Shown piece by piece: positions 958 to 10,280 of a stretch of DNA of 25,666 bases. Both the position numbers and the translations under genes were made by a program. The stretch spans positions 1-25,666 of the IMG/VR virus record IMGVR_UViG_3300033153_001772; one strand, 5' to 3'. A model generated the notes under the pieces. It was not told the origin of the DNA. It saw nothing but the letters and a program-made list of their open reading frames with translations, and ran no database searches. Every line of letters starts with the position of its first letter. The stretch's first letter is position 1. Origin of the DNA: a virus.

Positions 958-1509
958 ATGAAGATAAGTAAAGAAAACAAAGTAGAACTATTCAAGAGTC
1001 TAGCATCTCAACCTCTATATGAGGTAGGAGTTGCATATAACATGGATAGGTTCTATAAGAACAAGGTAGCGATAAAGAACGCTGTCTATAAGATATACAA
1101 CGATATTAGGCACAAACCTGAAGATTATGGTCTAGCCATTGAAACTGTTAACTTAGTAGTGGATGCAGTACAGAACAGGTCTGCAGCTCCATCAACATCG
1201 TTACAGGTAGATAACACTAAGTTGGAGACTAAAGAGCTATTAGGTAACATACAGGGGAAGACACTGCGACTACTTGACAGACGACTTGATTTGTTGTCTA
1301 AGTCTAAGAAGAAGTTAGAGAGTGTATCCCTGACACAGTTAGGTACACTAGCTGGTATCATCTTTGATAAGAATCAGATAATTAAAGGTGAGGCTACGCA
1401 ACACGTAGCAGTCCACGCTAAGATAGATAAGGATATGTCACCAGACCAATTGATTGAATTTGTGCAGAAGACTAGGGAGGGTCACTTTGAGGAGAACACA
1501 AAGAAATAA
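958..1509 (+). CDS. Small terminase subunit (TerS)
   Basis: A 183-residue protein, probably the DNA-recognition subunit of the packaging motor, which marks phage DNA for cutting by TerL. The N-terminal third is helical and could hold the DNA-binding helices. Residues about 95-150 are rich in Leu, Lys and Arg with heptad-like spacing, followed by a KNQIIKGEATQ stretch of a type I associate with small terminases. The call rests on this pattern, the size, and the position just upstream of the large terminase. The ATG at 958 is chosen because a consensus promoter ends 9 bases before it. A tiny gene follows after 1 base. Confidence 0.65.
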   Translation: MKISKENKVELFKSLASQPLYEVGVAYNMDRFYKNKVAIKNAVYKIYNDIRHKPEDYGLAIETVNLVVDAVQNRSAAPSTSLQVDNTKLETKELLGNIQGKTLRLLDRRLDLLSKSKKKLESVSLTQLGTLAGIIFDKNQIIKGEATQHVAVHAKIDKDMSPDQLIEFVQKTREGHFEENTKK

Positions 1510-1510
1510 A

Positions 1511-1657
1511 ATGAAAGCATTTACTGATTGTATGAAAAAGGGAGGAAAAATAAAGACTAGACAACTAGGTAAGGGTAAGTACCAGAGGATTTGCACACTT
1601 AAGAAGAAAGCCTACCTGGGAGAGATTAAGGTTAGAAAGAATCCTAAGAAACGTTAG
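1511..1657 (+). CDS. Small basic protein, function unknown
   Basis: A 48-residue, strongly basic protein with two cysteines (C7, C28) and a Lys/Arg-rich end (VRKNPKKR). The pattern is a short helix, then GGKIKTRQLGKGKY and a small beta-like part around ICTLKKKAYLGEIKV. The ATG at 1511 lies 1 base after the TerS stop, so the two are likely co-translated; a longer TTG-started form would overlap TerS and is less likely. The TAG stop (1655-1657) overlaps the first two bases of the tRNA. High charge suggests nucleic-acid binding, but no family is recognised. Confidence 0.6.
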   Translation: MKAFTDCMKKGGKIKTRQLGKGKYQRICTLKKKAYLGEIKVRKNPKKR

Positions 1658-1723
1658 GTCTGTTAATTGGATTAGCAGTAGCCTCCAAAGCTACTTACGA
1701 GGGTTCGACTCCTTCCAGACCTG
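1656..1723 (+). tRNA. tRNA-Trp (anticodon CCA), shortened D arm
   Basis: Acceptor stem AGGTCTG (1656-1662) pairs fully with CAGACCT (1716-1722), with G1723 as discriminator. The anticodon stem is GTAGC / GCTAC (1678-1682, 1690-1694) around loop CTCCAAA, giving anticodon CCA. The T stem is GAGGG / CCTTC with loop TTCGACT. A1-T72, G73 and CCA match bacterial tRNA-Trp identity. The D region is only about 13 bases (AATTGGATTAGCA); compared with E. coli tRNA-Trp, about four bases of the 5' D stem are missing. No CCA tail is encoded. It overlaps the preceding stop codon and may need processing from that mRNA. Confidence 0.75.
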
Positions 1724-1731
1724 CTAAACAC

Positions 1732-1760
1732 TTGACATTTATACTGAAATATGATACAAT
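1732..1760 (+). promoter_or_regulatory. Consensus promoter of the structured RNA
   Basis: A perfect TTGACA (1732-1737), 17-base spacer and TACAAT (1755-1760) preceded by TGA. This is the best -35 in the window. The predicted start, 1767, is within a base of the first base of the outer stem of the RNA below. Confidence 0.85.
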
Positions 1761-1766
1761 AGCTAT

Positions 1767-1883
1767 AGTGTTGTTAGGTTAACGAAATGTAATGTTTTTA
1801 CATTGTAATATAAAAAGCCTTCGCAACTGCGAGATTCGTTTAACCTCAATCAACACTAGTTGTTGGGGCTTTTTATATTATAA
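1767..1883 (+). ncRNA. Novel-looking structured RNA, probable pseudoknot
   Basis: An RNA of about 115 bases beginning at its own consensus promoter. Stem P1 pairs 1766-1773 with 1851-1858 (TAGTGTTG / CAACACTA). P2 pairs 1777-1786 with 1835-1845 with one bulged T. Inside P2 are hairpins ATGTAA / TTACAT (1787-1803) and TCGC / GCGA (1821-1832). The strand left between them, 1806-1819, is perfectly complementary over 14 bases to 1867-1880 beyond P1. P1/P2 and this long helix cross, so they form a pseudoknot or two alternative folds. There is no open reading frame of note. I do not recognise the family; a riboswitch-like attenuator or a stand-alone phage RNA are both possible. Confidence 0.6.
1803..1883 (+). 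terminator. Terminator-like long helix with GGGGC-T5
   Basis: TAATATAAAAAGCC (1806-1819) pairs with GGCTTTTTATATTA (1867-1880), extendable by G-U and A-U pairs at both ends to about 17 pairs. The 3' arm is a GGGGC followed by T5 and more A/T, as in an intrinsic terminator. Its 5' arm sits inside P2 of the RNA, so termination may compete with P1/P2 folding. Confidence 0.5.
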
Positions 1884-2259
1884 GTAATTTTACAACTGAA
1901 GTTGTGGATGAGCAATGGGGCATCTCTCATCAGAAAAATAAACATTGTCCGAGATAGTTGTGCTCTTTTTGCAAACTAGGGGGTAGCGTTCTTTTAGCCG
2001 TTCTCGTCCTCTAGCCGAAAAAGTACATAACTTAATAAACTGTCAACTAAGGTTAAAGTTAAGACCCACGCTGATACACACCCTCAGCAGGTTACATTGT
2101 ATGCTCTACATATATTGGTAGAAGATGTAACAGGGAAAACGGTAATGACTGAAATTGGTAAATCCGTCTCATACCCTCTTGTTGATACAACTTCAGCCAT
2201 ATCGCCCAATACGTTCCTTACCGTTTCGGTAAAGAACGGTGGGTGTGTCTTTAAACACA
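1884..2259 (+). other. Non-coding stretch with serial hairpins before glutaredoxin
   Basis: No convincing gene is seen. Perfect or near-perfect hairpins follow each other: ACAAC / GTTGT (1892-1905), GATGAG / CTCATC (1907-1931), CTAGGGG / CCTCTAG (1976-2014, one G-U), GCTGA / TCAGC (near 2070-2090), and a strong one at 2212-2238. It could be a long structured leader of the glutaredoxin gene or several small RNAs. A plus-strand frame crosses it but has no features of a gene. Confidence 0.4.
2212..2238 (+). promoter_or_regulatory. Strong hairpin upstream of glutaredoxin
   Basis: CGTTCCTTACCG and CGGTAAAGAACG pair in 11 of 12 positions around a TTT loop. It ends 21 bases before the ATG at 2260. 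No T tract follows, so it is more likely a leader structure or processing signal than a terminator. Confidence 0.45.
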
Positions 2260-2484
2260 ATGATACTATATACAACAACAAACTGTCCTCACTGCCAACT
2301 CTTAAAGGAGTTCTTAAACGAACACAATATTTCCTTTATGGCATATGACATAACTAATGACGCTACTAAGAGACAGGAACTAATAGAGATGACAGGACAA
2401 ATGGGAGTTCCTATCTTAGAGATTGATGGTGACTACTACGTAGGATTCAACGAGACACTACTAAGAAATGTATTGCATTTATAA
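2260..2484 (+). CDS. Glutaredoxin-like thiol oxidoreductase
   Basis: A 74-residue protein with the complete small glutaredoxin/NrdH pattern: beta strand, redox motif CPHC near the N-terminus, a helix, then the cis-proline segment GVPILEIDGDYYVGF. Such proteins pass electrons to ribonucleotide reductase or reduce disulfides in the cytoplasm. The start at 2260 (MILYTTTN) puts the motif in its normal place; an upstream start would add residues foreign to the fold. No ribonucleotide reductase gene is in the window, so its partner may be elsewhere or host-encoded. Its last codons contain the -35 of the large terminase promoter, so the two genes are physically interlocked. Confidence 0.85.
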   Translation: MILYTTTNCPHCQLLKEFLNEHNISFMAYDITNDATKRQELIEMTGQMGVPILEIDGDYYVGFNETLLRNVLHL

Positions 2485-2501
2485 GGTAAGTGTGCTATAA
2501 T
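2473..2501 (+). promoter_or_regulatory. Promoter of the large terminase
   Basis: TTGCAT (2473-2478), 17-base spacer, TATAAT (2496-2501) with TGC extension. The -35 lies inside the end of the glutaredoxin gene. Predicted start near 2508 leaves a 4-base leader before ATG 2512, so the mRNA is effectively leaderless. Confidence 0.8.
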
Positions 2502-2511
2502 ACAGTAAACT

Positions 2512-5127
2512 ATGCTAACAACAGAGCAAAGGGAAGCAGAGACACAAAGAAAGGAAAAGGTATTCCAAGAGTACCTTCTTTCTGCTGACTACCAGAAGAA
2601 ACTAAAACTGAGAGCAGAGATTAACGATGCCTGTGGACGTAGTGCCAAAGCTAGGGTAGCCACATGGCAACTATGCGAAAGACCTGACAATACTGTTGAA
2701 GGAATAAAGTTCTTCCTCAATAACTTCTGCTATACTCTCAGTACAAAGACTGACCCCAAACACCTACCCTTTATATTATTTGAATTTCAGGAAGATGCTA
2801 TTAGATGGATTGTAGACAGAATTGAAGGTAAAGAAGATGGACTCATAGAGAAGTCACGGGAAATGGGAATGTCTTGGTTAATGTTTGTAGCTGTACCAAT
2901 CTATTACTGGTTATTCCGTGATGGTATCAACATCTTAGTTGGTTCTTATAAGGAAATGCTTGTAGATGATAGAGGTATTGACTCTCTCTTCGGTAAGATG
3001 GATTATCTACTACAGGGACTACCTAAATGGTTACTACCTAAAAGGTTCAAATCTGATAAACATAGGAAGAAGATGCAATTAACCAACCCCGCCAACAACA
3101 ACCTTATTACAGGAGATACTATGAACCCCAACTTTGGACGTGGAGCTAGGAAGACATTGGTGATGTATGATGAATTAGGATTCTGGGACTATGCTAAAGA
3201 TGCTTGGGAAGGTGCGTCAGATACTACCGACTGTAGGATATGTAACAGTACACCTTGTGGCTATAACTACTATGCTCAATTAAGGGAATCAGAGATGCCT
3301 GTACTATCATTATTATGGAAACTTCATCCATTAAAAGACCAAGCCTGGTATGACTACCAGAAACTACGAAGGACTGAAGAGGAACTCGCCCAAGAGGTAG
3401 ACATCTCCTATTCTAAGTCTAGGGAAGGTAGAGTCTACCCTGAATGGAATGAGACCAATGTAGAACGAGGACTGTTTGAGTATGACGACAATGCACCCTT
3501 GTTTGTATCCCAGGACTTCGGGAAATGTATGTCTGAGGATACAGAAGCTCTTACAAAAGAAGGATGGAAAACTTATGATAAGTTAAATGTAGGAGATTTA
3601 ATATATACTCTTAATCAAGAAACATTAAAGGGAGAGTGGCAACCTATTAATGGAATTTATGTAAAAGATTATGATGGTAAATTAAAGATGTTTAATAGTC
3701 CTAAAATGAAGGCTATGTTTGAACCAGACCATAAATGGTATACACAAAAGTGGTATGGAAAAGATAGAAAAATAGTTCCTGGTAGTTTTAAAAGTTCTGA
3801 TGAGTTCAAAACTACAGATATACTTCCTGTTGCGGCTGTGTCAGGTGAATTACCTAAAAATAAAACTTACGATAATAGCTTAGTAAAACTTCTTGCTTGG
3901 TCTTGGACAGAAGGTCATATAGGATTAAGTGGTGCAATTGAGATAGGTCAAGCTATACCAGAAAATATCCCTACCATAAGAAAGGTTCTTGAAGATGAAT
4001 TTGGAAAACCAAAGAAGAGTTTACTTGGTGTTAAGGAATCAGCATGGACAGAAAGAAAACCAAGATGGAGAAAGAATACTAATTATCCAATAACTATTTT
4101 TTATATTAATAAACCTGGAGCAAAAAGAATCAGAGACTTATTTAACGAAGATAAGGTTATTAAATATGATGTTATTAATAAGTTTACAAAAAAACAATTA
4201 GAATCATTTATGCACCACAGTATGATGGCTGACGGTTGTAATAGTCTACTTAAACAATCTAATCTAAAAAGAACAGAAGTGTTCGGTTATGTTTTATCAT
4301 TACTTGGATATAGAACATCTTTTGGAACTGAAAAAATGAAAGGATATTCAGACTGTCATTATGTTAGATATTCAACCAAAGATAAATTATATCTTGGAAA
4401 TTATATTAAAACAAAGAATCATATAGTTGACGTTGATTATAATGGAAAGATTTGGTGTCCAAGTATAGATAATCATGTTTGGTTAGCTAGAAATAGAGGA
4501 AAAACTTATTTTACTGGCAACAGTGATGACAATGCTATCATATGGGCACAGCCTACTAAGGATGGTAAGCTAAGGATTATTGATACCTATAGGAATACAG
4601 GGAAGAACATAGACTTCTATGTACCTTTTATTACTGGATACTTCCCTGGTGACTCTAACTATAACTATACCGCAGATGAACTAAATATAATAGAAGACCA
4701 CAGAAACTGGAAAAGAGCTACACACTTCGGAGACCCAGCAGGTAGATTCCATAACCAAGTATCAGATGAGTCTGTTATTGACGTATTAAGAAAATATGGT
4801 GTAGTTGTTAACTTTAAGGACAAATGGAAAGAATTTAAGATTAGAAAGAGTACTACTAAGAGACTAATAATGGATGGTATAGAACTGAACTCCAATGTTA
4901 GGAACAAATACTTTGATATATGTATCATTAACTCTTCTTACCCTAAGGTTAAGTCAGAGGGTATGGCACAGGTTAGGAGTGAGAAACCACTTCACAATTC
5001 TTATTCACACTACAGGAGTGCCTTAGAATACCTAGCCTTAGGACTATCTGATATGGATAATAGAAAGCACACACCAATAGATAAGTTTAAACCAAGAAGC
5101 AGTGGTAGAATCGCTGGAGGATACTAA
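2512..5127 (+). CDS. terL: Large terminase subunit (TerL) with intein
   Basis: The ATP-driven motor and nuclease that packages phage DNA into the empty head. The N-terminal ATPase has a Walker A variant SREMGMS (about residues 115-121) and Walker B LVMYDE (216-221). The C-terminal RNase H-like nuclease begins at VSQDFG (D335 is a likely metal ligand) and continues after the intein with SDDNAIIW. The 871-residue precursor is longer than usual because residues 339-670 form an intein; without it the protein is 539 residues, normal for TerL. The start at 2512 follows a promoter by 10 bases. A small gene starts 1 base after the stop. Confidence 0.93.
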   Translation: MLTTEQREAETQRKEKVFQEYLLSADYQKKLKLRAEINDACGRSAKARVATWQLCERPDNTVEGIKFFLNNFCYTLSTKTDPKHLPFILFEFQEDAIRWIVDRIEGKEDGLIEKSREMGMSWLMFVAVPIYYWLFRDGINILVGSYKEMLVDDRGIDSLFGKMDYLLQGLPKWLLPKRFKSDKHRKKMQLTNPANNNLITGDTMNPNFGRGARKTLVMYDELGFWDYAKDAWEGASDTTDCRICNSTPCGYNYYAQLRESEMPVLSLLWKLHPLKDQAWYDYQKLRRTEEELAQEVDISYSKSREGRVYPEWNETNVERGLFEYDDNAPLFVSQDFGKCMSEDTEALTKEGWKTYDKLNVGDLIYTLNQETLKGEWQPINGIYVKDYDGKLKMFNSPKMKAMFEPDHKWYTQKWYGKDRKIVPGSFKSSDEFKTTDILPVAAVSGELPKNKTYDNSLVKLLAWSWTEGHIGLSGAIEIGQAIPENIPTIRKVLEDEFGKPKKSLLGVKESAWTERKPRWRKNTNYPITIFYINKPGAKRIRDLFNEDKVIKYDVINKFTKKQLESFMHHSMMADGCNSLLKQSNLKRTEVFGYVLSLLGYRTSFGTEKMKGYSDCHYVRYSTKDKLYLGNYIKTKNHIVDVDYNGKIWCPSIDNHVWLARNRGKTYFTGNSDDNAIIWAQPTKDGKLRIIDTYRNTGKNIDFYVPFITGYFPGDSNYNYTADELNIIEDHRNWKRATHFGDPAGRFHNQVSDESVIDVLRKYGVVVNFKDKWKEFKIRKSTTKRLIMDGIELNSNVRNKYFDICIINSSYPKVKSEGMAQVRSEKPLHNSYSHYRSALEYLALGLSDMDNRKHTPIDKFKPRSSGRIAGGY
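3526..4521 (+). other. LAGLIDADG intein inside TerL
   Basis: A protein intron of 332 residues (C339-N670). It starts with CMSEDTEALT, a typical N-terminal splice block, and ends FTGN followed by Ser671 as the downstream nucleophile. The usual penultimate His is Gly, a variant found in some inteins. Two degenerate LAGLIDADG motifs are visible: LVKLLAWSWTEGH (acid E467) and LESFMHHSMMADGC (acid D574), so the homing endonuclease may be active. The insert is visibly richer in A/T third bases than the flanking TerL, a sign of later arrival. It sits within the nuclease motif DFGK-SDD, so TerL should be inactive as nuclease until splicing. Confidence 0.92.
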
Positions 5128-5616: not shown

Positions 5617-7620
5617 ATGACAGAAGCGAATACAAAAAACAAACCTTTACTTGAAGAAGTAAACGAAACGTTTGAGGACATTAAACTTTCAGATAAAGCA
5701 TCTGAGGTTCGTTCTGCTGTATTTGAGAAGTTTAGATTGACTGCTGATGCACGAAACTTAAACTTTGAGAACTTTGATGGTGATAATCTTATTACCTATA
5801 TAGAAGACTCTGTTAGACGTTATATCACTAACAAAGACCTACGTGAGGATATAGAAGATTGGCAAGCACGTGTCCACGACCAAATCACTAGGAACAAGGT
5901 TACTGCTGTCCTAGGTAAAGCCGTCAATGTTTTACCCATAGCTCAACTCGTAGGAAGAGGAGATGAAGATGTACGGAGGGTCAGAACCCTAGACGACCTA
6001 TATCAATACTCAGAAGACGTAGAGGACTATAAAGAGTTTATGGTTAGCTATTTAGAGGAGGCTATCGTCAAGGGAACTGTAATCGGTTACGAGGGACATG
6101 AGAAGAAGATTCGTGTTCTAAAGAACATCAAGAACTCTGGTGATGAGATAAAACAAACAGATACTATAGAAGAGAGTAACAGACTTACCCACTCCGTAGT
6201 TAAACTGGAGAACTTTTATCCCTCATCTGTAGGAGTAAGACGTATAAAGGATATGCCTTACTGTTTCGTAAGGTACAATATACCTCTTAACCTGTTTAGA
6301 CAAGACTATGCAATGTATTCTAAGACTGCTGATGTTCAACCACAGTCGTTCCTTGTAGGAGAAGAAGACAGACCAACTTACCTAGATTTTATAAGTAATG
6401 ATGTCGCTGAAGGTAATGTTGAGATAATAAAGTATTATAATAAAGACACAGACGAATTTATCATACTAGCCAATGGTATTTGGCTAAACCCGATTATGAT
6501 TAAGGAAGAGGAGATAATCTCTGGTATTCCTTTTAATCACAAAGAATTACCGTTCTTTGACCTAAGATATGAGTCATTTGGTAACGACTTCTTTTATGGA
6601 AAGTCTTTACCAGACAAATTGAAATCAATGCAGGATGTATTGAATGTATTAACTAACATGCTGTTAGACCAATCATTCCTAACAATCTTTCCACCATTAT
6701 TGACTAATGGCTTTGATTCAATAGAGGACGACTACCTAAGACCAGGGAGAAGGACACCTATAGACACCCAAGGATTGTCAATTAGGGATTCATTTATGAA
6801 GTTAGACCTTGGAACTCCAAGCGGTTGGCATCAGTTTATTCTACAGTATACTAGAGGTATAATGGAAGAATCATCTGTTGACAAGGTATCGCAAGGTGTT
6901 GCAGGTCAAGGAGATAGAACTACTGCACAGGAGATTAGGGTTGCGGCTGCTGGTGTAGCCTCAATGCTAGGCTTATTCGGAGAGTTCGTTAAATATTCTA
7001 TTAAAAGAAAGGCTATGCTTAGAAGTAGTAATATACTACAAATCTGGACAAGTAAGAACACTCCTATTATAGAGAAGATAATGGGTGAGGGTGGTGCTGC
7101 AGATATGACTAAAGCCTTTAATATAATAGAGATTGATAGTACTATAATGACATCTGGTAAGAGAGGTAGAAAGGTTATTGAGATGTATGCTGATGAGAAC
7201 GATATGCCAAGCCCAGGAGAGCTTAAAGCTAGGGAGGTTATATTTGAGATAGAGACTGGACAGAAGATAGAGGTTCTTGCCATTCCTGCTGAGTACATAA
7301 GAGACCTATCCTATGACGTTAAGATAATCGTTAACCCTGTATCAGAGGAGACACAGGAGAACGAGAAGGCATTAATACTAGAGAAGGCTAGAGTTTACAT
7401 GAGCTTCTTCCCTAATCTAGTAAATGTAGAGGAATTAGCTGCACAGATAGCTGAGAAGTTCGGAGATGACCCAACCAAGATGTTGAAGCAAAGTAAACCA
7501 GGAGGAGCACCTGAGGAGGGTCTAGTTAACGCAGAACAAGACCAGGGACTAGGAATGAAGCCACAAGGTAATGTAGCTAACAATATTAGTAGAGGATTAA
7601 GAAGTGGTGAAAGAGCTTAA
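5617..7620 (+). CDS. Portal protein
   Basis: Forms the twelve-subunit ring at one vertex of the head through which DNA enters and leaves; it is also the docking site for terminase and tail. The 667-residue protein has family-like features: an alpha-helical N-terminus, the FFYGKSLPDKLKSMQDVLNV region typical of the portal stem and wing, the GDRTTAQEI motif in the crown-proximal part, and a Gly/Gln-rich tail. Its length is nearer to the long portals of short-tailed phages such as P22 than to the roughly 400-500 residues common in long-tailed phages. It follows TerL as usual and its stop overlaps the next start (TAATG). Confidence 0.88.
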   Translation: MTEANTKNKPLLEEVNETFEDIKLSDKASEVRSAVFEKFRLTADARNLNFENFDGDNLITYIEDSVRRYITNKDLREDIEDWQARVHDQITRNKVTAVLGKAVNVLPIAQLVGRGDEDVRRVRTLDDLYQYSEDVEDYKEFMVSYLEEAIVKGTVIGYEGHEKKIRVLKNIKNSGDEIKQTDTIEESNRLTHSVVKLENFYPSSVGVRRIKDMPYCFVRYNIPLNLFRQDYAMYSKTADVQPQSFLVGEEDRPTYLDFISNDVAEGNVEIIKYYNKDTDEFIILANGIWLNPIMIKEEEIISGIPFNHKELPFFDLRYESFGNDFFYGKSLPDKLKSMQDVLNVLTNMLLDQSFLTIFPPLLTNGFDSIEDDYLRPGRRTPIDTQGLSIRDSFMKLDLGTPSGWHQFILQYTRGIMEESSVDKVSQGVAGQGDRTTAQEIRVAAAGVASMLGLFGEFVKYSIKRKAMLRSSNILQIWTSKNTPIIEKIMGEGGAADMTKAFNIIEIDSTIMTSGKRGRKVIEMYADENDMPSPGELKAREVIFEIETGQKIEVLAIPAEYIRDLSYDVKIIVNPVSEETQENEKALILEKARVYMSFFPNLVNVEELAAQIAEKFGDDPTKMLKQSKPGGAPEEGLVNAEQDQGLGMKPQGNVANNISRGLRSGERA

Positions 7621-7853: not shown

Positions 7854-7960
7854 CAGCTTGACAATTAAATAATTAAGTGTTCTTGCTCGGCTTTGTTACT
7901 CTGTTGACGAAGTCGACCAAGACTACTTAATGTAGCCTAAGTGTCGCATACTATAAATTA

Positions 7961-7992
7961 ACTGGTCTCAACCAGTCTTGGTCTCAACCAAG
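7961..7992 (+). repeat. Tandem twin hairpins with identical loops
   Basis: Two perfect 16-base hairpins abut: ACTGGT-CTCA-ACCAGT (7961-7976) and CTTGGT-CTCA-ACCAAG (7977-7992). Both have a CTCA loop and the core GGTCTCAACC. They sit in the 176-base gap between the portal-linked gene and the scaffold gene, which also holds GTTGAC-GAA-GTCGAC (about 7903-7917). The motif TCTCAACCAAG recurs at 11036-11046. No T tract follows directly. RNA processing, mRNA stabilisation or a binding site for a repeat-recognising protein are possible. Confidence 0.55.
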
Positions 7993-8029
7993 TAAAAAAG
8001 GGATAACTTAAAAAGGGAACTTTATAACT

Positions 8030-8725
8030 ATGGAAAATAATGAAACACCTCCTGTAGAAGAGACTCCTGTCGAGGGAGAATCTACTATAGAAGAAGACGC
8101 AAGTAAGAACGTTGAAGAAATTAAAACCTTAAAGGAAGAAAAGACTAATCTTATTAGTGAGATACAGTCAATTAGGAAGGATAGGGCTGAAACAAGAGAG
8201 GAAATCGAAGTCTTGAAGAAGAAGCTTGAAGACAAGGTAGAGACTCCTGCTGACGCAACTCCAACTAATGACGAAATCATAACTGAGACGGTTAAGAAGA
8301 TTCTTTTAGAAGGTGACAAAGATAAAGCTAAGTCTAATAAAGATGAAGCTTTGAAGAGGTTTATTGCAGAAAATAAACAATTCAATGAAGATAACGACCC
8401 AACTGGGTTAAAGCGTGATGCTTTGGAAAAGAAGCTAGCACGGTTTAATACAGAAGGACTATCTACATTAGAGGAATTTTATTCTGTAATTGGAGATGCT
8501 CATAGTCTCCTAGGTGGAAACGATACAAAGCCTAAAACTGATGAGGTTGCAAATCCTTATTCTACAACACCTGCGATAGACGTAACGCCTGTCGTGGTAA
8601 CTAATTCTGAACTATCTACAAAGGAAAGGGAAACAGCTAAGAGATTAGGATGGACTGAAGAGAAAATGCTAAAAATCAAGACTGACAAACCTGACTACTT
8701 TGCAAGACTGTTTAGAGAAGTTTAA
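8030..8725 (+). CDS. Putative scaffolding protein
   Basis: A 231-residue, very acidic protein with a long coiled coil (about residues 25-75, with regular Leu, Ile, Glu, Lys), a Pro/Thr-rich linker, and a helical C-terminus (TAKRLGWTEEKMLKIKTDKPDYFARLF). Acidic N-terminus, coiled coil and position directly before the decoration and capsid genes are the marks of phage scaffolds, which shape the procapsid and then leave. The ATG at 8030 has only a weak, distant AGGGA upstream. No protease domain is visible. Confidence 0.72.
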   Translation: MENNETPPVEETPVEGESTIEEDASKNVEEIKTLKEEKTNLISEIQSIRKDRAETREEIEVLKKKLEDKVETPADATPTNDEIITETVKKILLEGDKDKAKSNKDEALKRFIAENKQFNEDNDPTGLKRDALEKKLARFNTEGLSTLEEFYSVIGDAHSLLGGNDTKPKTDEVANPYSTTPAIDVTPVVVTNSELSTKERETAKRLGWTEEKMLKIKTDKPDYFARLFREV

Positions 8726-9299: not shown

Positions 9300-10280
9300 A
9301 TGGAAAGTAGAGCAAAGTGGACGGATTTAATTCCTGACACAGGACTAAAGATTTCTGAGGCTTATGACCAAGGTGATGATATTTATACACCTGGTATTAG
9401 TTCTGTACTAAAAGTTATCTCTACCGATAAGGCACAGGTAAACTTTACTGGTAAAACAGGTACAGGTAGACTAAAGAAGTTCTTAGATGGAGACGATATT
9501 CCAACAACGGTAAGAGACAAAACTTACACAACTCAAGTTGCTATCACTAATTACGGTGAGGCAATTGAGGTCACAAAAAACACAATACAGGATAGAGATT
9601 TTGATTCAGAACTAAGCGAGATGAAAGACATCTCGAAGATGGCTAACTATTCAATTGATGAGGCTGGATTCCAGTTATTCAACGGTGGTTTCGCAACTAC
9701 TACTTCGGTAGGTGGTTATGAGATGACTTGGTACAATGACGGAAAACCTCAATTCTCAACAGCTCACCCAACAGTCGTTGCTGGTGGTTCAACACAATCA
9801 AATGCTTCCTCAACAGGAATCACATTTGGTCACGATAACTTGGAAACAGGTACGTTGGCACTACAACTTCAAAAGGCTGACAACGGTATTCCTTTGGCAA
9901 TGACAGGTAAGATTTCTATCGTACTTCCATTGGCTTTGGATAGGGAAGGAAGGGAAGAATTAGAAACACCAAAAATCGCAGAGAACGCTAATAACGCTAT
10001 AAACGTTTATCATGGCGGAACTCACGATATGGTAACTTCTAAGTTCTTAGATAACGGAATGGTAGCTAGTGGTGTAGGTTCAAACACAGCTTGGTTCTTA
10101 ATAAACCAAACTGAGGCTAAACTTTACCACATGACTAGACAAGAAAAGACTCTTGAATCTGATGTTAATATCAGGAACAAGGTTGTTACATTTACAGTTG
10201 ACGCTAGGTTCGCTAACTTCTCTAAGGAGTATAAGGGAACATGGGCTAGCAAAGGCGACGTTTCCTCATACACAGGATAG
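9300..10280 (+). CDS. Major capsid protein, HK97 fold
   Basis: The main shell protein of the head. The 326-residue protein shows features I associate with Mu gpT-like capsid proteins: an N-terminal helix, the TTQVAITNYGEAIEVTKN strand region, a helical spine (about 100-125), the PQFSTAHP motif in the middle, IPLAMTGKISIVLP in the A domain, and a C-terminal DARFANFSKEYKGTWASKGD end. It has no N-terminal delta domain, matching the separate scaffold gene upstream. The stop is TAG. An HNH gene with its own promoter lies directly downstream. Confidence 0.85.
   Translation: MESRAKWTDLIPDTGLKISEAYDQGDDIYTPGISSVLKVISTDKAQVNFTGKTGTGRLKKFLDGDDIPTTVRDKTYTTQVAITNYGEAIEVTKNTIQDRDFDSELSEMKDISKMANYSIDEAGFQLFNGGFATTTSVGGYEMTWYNDGKPQFSTAHPTVVAGGSTQSNASSTGITFGHDNLETGTLALQLQKADNGIPLAMTGKISIVLPLALDREGREELETPKIAENANNAINVYHGGTHDMVTSKFLDNGMVASGVGSNTAWFLINQTEAKLYHMTRQEKTLESDVNIRNKVVTFTVDARFANFSKEYKGTWASKGDVSSYTG

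Follow-up and report, generated by a model that had tools for sequence, protein, structure and literature searches.

A self-promoted, structured non-coding RNA in the terminase gap of a viral contig: a possible transcription attenuator

What does a strong phage promoter make when no reading frame stands behind it? The question arises at position 1732 of a 25.7-kb viral contig (IMG/VR record IMGVR_UViG_3300033153_001772; its 25,666 nucleotides, analysed as a whole, are called the window here). The window carries tailed-phage genes, all of the named ones on the + strand (Table 1), and the structured RNA predicted downstream of the promoter sits between the two packaging (terminase) genes. An earlier note on this DNA had described a promoter, a set of crossing helices and a terminator-like end, and had offered three guesses: a regulatory attenuator, a phage RNA acting on the host, or a new RNA family. 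The nearer relatives of the virus are viral contigs with ~50–67% terminase identity. A CPR (Patescibacteria) host is likely from the placement of relatives, because one of them (L107, 47%) lies within a Parcubacteria MAG; another lies in a MAG labelled as an archaeon. The large terminase itself contains an intein-like insert (~3521–4590) between the motifs DFGK and SDDNAIIW, and the terminase of the relative L002 is continuous without it.

Table 1. Positions of genes, promoters and RNA elements in the window, with example loci in relatives
Feature	Position	Strand	Remarks
Small-terminase-like gene	958–1509	+	
47-aa basic protein	1511–1654	+	
tRNA-Trp (CCA)	1656–1724	+	upstream neighbour of the RNA region; only Rfam match in the neighbourhood
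Predicted sigma70-type extended -10 promoter, TTGACA-N17-TACAAT	1732–1760	+	TG before the -10; start predicted at ~1767; consensus scan
-35 hexamer TTGACA	1732–1737	+	followed by 17-nt spacer
-10 hexamer TACAAT	1755–1760	+	
Structured non-coding RNA / leader	1767–1883	+	terminated product would be ~108–110 nt (to ~1875)
P1	5' strand 1766–1773, 3' strand 1851–1858	+	3' strand also inside terminator hairpin 1844–1868
P2	5' strand 1777–1786, 3' strand 1835–1845	+	1844–1845 common to terminator hairpin
Hairpin 1 (7 bp)	1786–1804	+	
14-bp helix, 5' arm (junction strand UAAUAUAAAAAGCC)	1806–1819	+	
Hairpin 2, UUCGC-AACU-GCGAG	1820–1833	+	
Predicted intrinsic terminator, CCUCAA-u-CAAC-ACUA-GUUG-UUGGGG then C-UUUUU	1844–1874	+	excludes P1 and outer P2
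14-bp helix, 3' arm	1867–1880	+	U tract included
ORF without ATG (CTG 2040 or TTG 2097)	2040–2348	+	codon use resembles coding sequence; first candidate gene under the leader
Glutaredoxin	2263–2484	+	second candidate gene under the leader
Separate promoter, TTGCAT-N17-TATAAT	2473–2501	+	just upstream of large terminase ATG 2512
Large terminase with intein-like insert	2512–5127	+	ATG 2512
Portal	5617–7620	+	
60-nt hairpin before scaffold gene	7872–7931		region z -6.7
Two adjacent hairpins with six-base loops	7961–7976, 7977–7992		
A-rich GGG motifs 1 and 2	8000–8002, 8015–8017		then scaffold ATG 8030
Scaffold-like coiled coil	8030–8725	+	
Capsid protein	9300–10280	+	
Class promoters with a gene	920; 2473; 5564; 10291; 16456		small terminase; large terminase; portal; HNH gene; tail-region gene
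Scaffold-leader loci in relatives (model R2, examples)	L029 6130–6190; L039 5336–5396; L045 4832–4892		

Promoter 1732 ranks best among the 23 sites in the first 6 kb of the window. Its hexamers, spacer and positions are exactly those of the earlier note, which had called it perfect; that word was too strong for an extended -10 site matching the consensus at 11 of 12 positions. The promoter puts the predicted start at the first P1 bases, as had been proposed, and the helices described downstream were recovered in full: P1 with 8/8 pairs and P2 with 10 pairs (U1839 bulged), both at the exact positions, the 14-base pairing with 14/14, two internal hairpins that could be placed (Table 1), and the GGGGC-T5 end resembling a terminator, at 1865–1874. 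Folding of the region is considerably more stable than that of shuffled sequence, with z -4.9 for 1767–1890 and z -4.7 for 1767–1884, where none of 500 shuffles was as stable. The window contains a single perfect 14-bp inverted repeat with a loop of at most 60, and none of 100 shuffled windows contains any. When the whole window was scanned with a rough sliding fold, the RNA region ranked fifth and the leader before the scaffold gene second. Codon scores of the three frames of 1767–1883 range from -0.46 to -0.68, as expected of real genes read out of frame, and neighbouring genes score +0.16 to +0.18; a coding explanation was rejected, in agreement with the claim that no protein frame explains the region. 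The product of promoter 1732 would therefore begin as a non-coding RNA. At the level of sequence, the observation of a non-random, self-promoted, non-coding structured RNA is confirmed. Between this RNA and the next ORF lies a second folded non-coding stretch (1885–2040), with a hairpin CAAC-UGAA-GUUG and a stem at ~1960–2012.

The promoter belongs to a class, TTG-N20-TGnTA(T/C)AAT (TGnTANAAT), with six members in the window: 1732 and the five listed with their genes in Table 1. In five of the six, the -10 ends 6–24 nt upstream of an ATG, and this spacing suggests near-leaderless mRNAs, the expected start lying a few bases from the ATG at four of the five promoters that have a gene. The class is frequent in relatives too, where a reading frame is found within 80 nt of the promoter in 104/169 cases. 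Promoter 1732 is the sole member in the window without a reading frame behind it. Elsewhere, class promoters followed by a strong fold and no early frame were seen at L050 917, L063 minus 10211 and 11034, L042 minus 8382 and L055 2437, and the RNAs behind them are possible further phage non-coding RNAs. A consensus scan of 1760–2473 found no class promoter; the ATG-less ORF and the glutaredoxin gene would therefore need read-through that starts at 1767 or somewhere upstream of it. The ORF scores 0.03 in its own frame vs ~-0.7 in the other two, the glutaredoxin gene 0.18. No homologue of the ORF was found, and glutaredoxin is rare at this place in relatives, with one weak match (L013/L032).

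The earlier note had drawn all helices into a single pseudoknotted fold and had missed a hairpin at 1844–1868 (-9.8 to -10.5 kcal/mol), which together with the U tract forms the predicted intrinsic terminator. P1 and outer P2 share 1844–1858 with this hairpin, so that the helices are mutually exclusive. For the full transcript, the nested energy minimum is a long hairpin that includes the 14-bp helix, at -33.5 vs ~-26.7 kcal/mol for P1/P2. With both 14-bp arms left unpaired P1/P2 reaches -26.2 kcal/mol, and the 14-bp duplex contributes -14.8; coexistence of all three helices would thus total -41 kcal/mol, comparable to the nested fold, before any pseudoknot penalty. In such a pseudoknot the 8-nt linker 1859–1866 would have to bridge ~20 stacked pairs, which we estimate to be sterically marginal. 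The arms of the proposed fold are therefore exact and can coexist on paper, but the linker is marginal and nested folds also account for these arms; in these models, the "pseudoknot" arms are better read as competing states. Along the growing transcript, the computed probability of P1/P2 is 1.0 by 1858 and at least 0.98 up to 1874, after which the long hairpin with the 14-bp helix displaces it, P1 being down to 0.03 by 1878. The terminator hairpin is only ~0.5% populated at equilibrium at the decision point. These populations are unconstrained probabilities; energies of forced folds (-34.8, with one non-standard pair) were set aside.

We searched for relatives of the RNA in several collections. 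At curated thresholds, Rfam 15 gave no family for 1766–1884, the neighbouring tRNA-Trp being the only match, and relaxed thresholds (E up to 5) added only chance-level microRNA models on the region. A blastn search with 1500–2500 found no match among phage records. The covariance model R1, built from a single sequence and thus liable to miss distant relatives, recovered from 830 kb of terminase, portal and capsid loci of relatives only itself and a chance opposite-strand match of its own palindrome; over 29 whole viral records, the 2 MAGs that bear relatives and 192 genomes of the phylum of the Parcubacteria MAG, it found none at the limits used. Pattern scans of viral DNA gave 0 matches for the P2 5' strand plus junction, 10 for the AAAAAGCC/GGGCTTTTT arms (P1/P2 absent from all of them, most being ordinary terminators or chance), 53 for the P2 arms (none fitting R1) and 1, unrelated, for hairpin 2 with the arms. 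A T-box, considered for the adjoining tRNA-Trp, was rejected (no T-box signature and no Rfam match), as was a tmRNA or RNase P RNA, considered since relatives carry them here (no model match). A literature search for RNAs of CPR phages and for RNase P RNA in phages found nothing on point. The RNA is an orphan in every collection searched, from which near copies of the window's own genome may be absent, and is therefore a candidate of a known kind; the suggestion of a new RNA family did not find support. That the window holds the first example of a new class private to Patescibacteria (CPR) phages, either a ligand- or protein-sensing transcription switch or a pseudoknotted RNA, seems unlikely to us.

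A better candidate for a new RNA family, judging from sequence comparison, is the leader between the portal and scaffold genes, reached via the same promoter class. Its model, R2, matches 51 loci, a number that includes duplicates of one contig. A coiled-coil-like ORF lies downstream in 33/33 analysed sequences, its ATG 6–28 nt past the second GGG motif. In the alignment of these 33 sequences (A3), which we cut and registered ourselves, with the register of L006 set by hand, 98.7% of cells are paired and 100 cells changed on both sides; the covariation score is 0.58 vs 0.17 for shuffled alignments. Loop 2 pairs with motif 1 and loop 1 with motif 2, the middle pair alternating among U.G, C-G and A-U. 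By automatic extraction, from a set of 34 that includes one spurious extra row from L002, these pairings hold in 34/34 and 33/34 cases (permutation p <1e-4, relatedness not corrected), whereas with the partners crossed only 22/34 and 21/34 pair, no more than chance. The best reading of the leader is two H-type pseudoknots, one nested within the other, of which the outer one covers a possible ribosome-binding GGG before the scaffold gene; its role is perhaps the autogenous control of scaffold translation. Rfam gave no match to it in the window or in 11 relatives, a search of 287 genomes from the phylum did not detect it, and no consensus -10 was found before it in the window.

Relatives carry RNA genes in the gap between the terminase genes. 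Three contigs (L006, L020 and L025) have ~20 tRNAs each there; in L025 a tmRNA (4263–4576) stands among 23 tRNAs, and in L020 (IMGVR_UViG_3300024518_005648) a class A RNase P RNA (1840–2111) lies inside the tRNA cluster, at 76 bits, under the curated cut-off of 100, with E 1.3e-23 over 272 nt. In L106, a tRNA-like minihelix, read by eye, lies directly upstream of tRNA-Met (2107–2150), with an acceptor-like GGGACTG/CAGTTCC and a T-arm-like hairpin, then ACA.

How, then, might the RNA at 1767 work? Our preferred reading, which we hold tentatively, is that of a phage transcription attenuator ahead of the unnamed ORF and glutaredoxin; among the guesses of the earlier note it fits best, and the structured non-coding RNA with its own promoter stands with it. 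Host polymerase would start at ~1767 from the extended -10 promoter, and the first ~100 nt of RNA are computed to fold into P1/P2 plus two small hairpins. The 5' arm of the terminator is shared with the 3' strands of P1/P2, so that P1/P2 would by position be the antiterminator, sequestering that arm. If P1/P2 were unformed or opened, the hairpin and its CUUUUU would halt transcription at ~1875; otherwise read-through would reach the ORF and glutaredoxin, with the large terminase served by its own promoter. A protein, small molecule, ribosome or RNA could be the signal that selects between the states, and the 14-bp helix would close a stable final hairpin once its 3' arm has emerged. By analogy, a closing stem, a junction and a terminator that shares the closing stem is attenuator logic. 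The adjoining of hairpin and U tract, the computed exchange of P1/P2 for the long hairpin along the growing transcript, the shared strands, the strength of a promoter without an ORF, the lack of another class promoter before 2473 and the precedent, in the same genomes, of the conserved scaffold leader all favor attenuation. Against it stand the long distance from leader to glutaredoxin (~500 nt), an intervening ORF with neither ATG nor relatives, the rarity of glutaredoxin at this place in relatives, and the absence of homologues, which leaves neither state with comparative support. The low population of the terminator hairpin at the decision point means that active opening or kinetics must be assumed.

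The storage of RNA genes in the terminase gap of relatives is why the attenuator is put forward only tentatively and why a free-standing phage small RNA of ~108–110 nt has to be weighed as its main rival. Such an RNA, with its own promoter and terminator, would act in trans on host or phage and could be a true pseudoknot. A start at the first P1 bases, a terminator at the 3' end, the non-coding sequence and the summed energy of P1/P2 and the 14-bp helix agree with this possibility, as does the company of up to 23 tRNAs, a tmRNA and an RNase P RNA in relatives. We nevertheless consider it doubtful: competition between P1/P2 and its own terminator would be odd in a simple small RNA gene, the linker is short for a full pseudoknot, and neither 29 whole viral records nor 192 CPR genomes yielded a homologue.

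The region could also be an ordinary constitutive terminator, a long hairpin ending the small terminase/tRNA-Trp transcript, with P1/P2 incidental. The A-tract/GCC...GGC/T-tract sequence is typical of terminators, the energy minimum of the whole region is a single long hairpin, and similarly outlined pattern matches in other viruses resemble ordinary terminators. An extended -10 promoter between the tRNA and such a terminator would be pointless, however, and P1/P2 makes the sequence ahead of the U tract unusually stable in itself (z -3.0, 3/500 shuffles), so that this explanation has little probability in our view. Packaging signals are often located between terminase genes, and the position of the repeat would suit a DNA-level packaging or recombination site that only resembles RNA structure. 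This we regard as highly improbable: promoter, stem and terminator follow one another asymmetrically on one strand, and the terminase gaps of relatives, several only tens of bases long, hold no counterpart.

Collectively, these results indicate that the 1767 RNA is real and non-random, a non-coding leader under its own promoter with what is probably a conditional terminator. No relative was found in the collections searched, and its job we infer. To our knowledge, regulation in CPR/Patescibacteria phages is almost unexplored, and should the leader indeed switch termination, the packaging genes of such a virus would have an RNA control point beside them. The wider result carries more weight: near-leaderless extended -10 transcripts, RNA genes in the terminase gap and a covarying scaffold leader absent from Rfam.

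Several known systems invite comparison. The phage tRNA/tmRNA clusters between terminase genes, common in relatives, occupy the same genomic place as the 1767 RNA, which, unlike them, fits none of the tRNA, tmRNA and RNase P models. The lambda late leader (pR' - 6S RNA - tR') likewise combines a strong promoter with a short, structured, terminated RNA and phage genes downstream on the same strand, whereas in the window separate promoters serve the large terminase and other late genes. The put antiterminator RNA of HK022 is, like the proposed 1767 leader, a phage leader structure that lets polymerase pass a terminator in cis; put is a pair of simple hairpins and acts on polymerase at terminators far away, whereas in the window the helix directly overlaps one terminator. 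In pbuE-type (adenine) ON riboswitches, a P1-closed 5' domain shares the 3' strand of P1 with a terminator hairpin. Although it contains no aptamer sequence of any Rfam riboswitch and no homologue of it was found, the 1767 RNA resembles them in its P1-closed 5' domain, its three-way-junction-like fold and the sharing of the P1 3' strand with the terminator.
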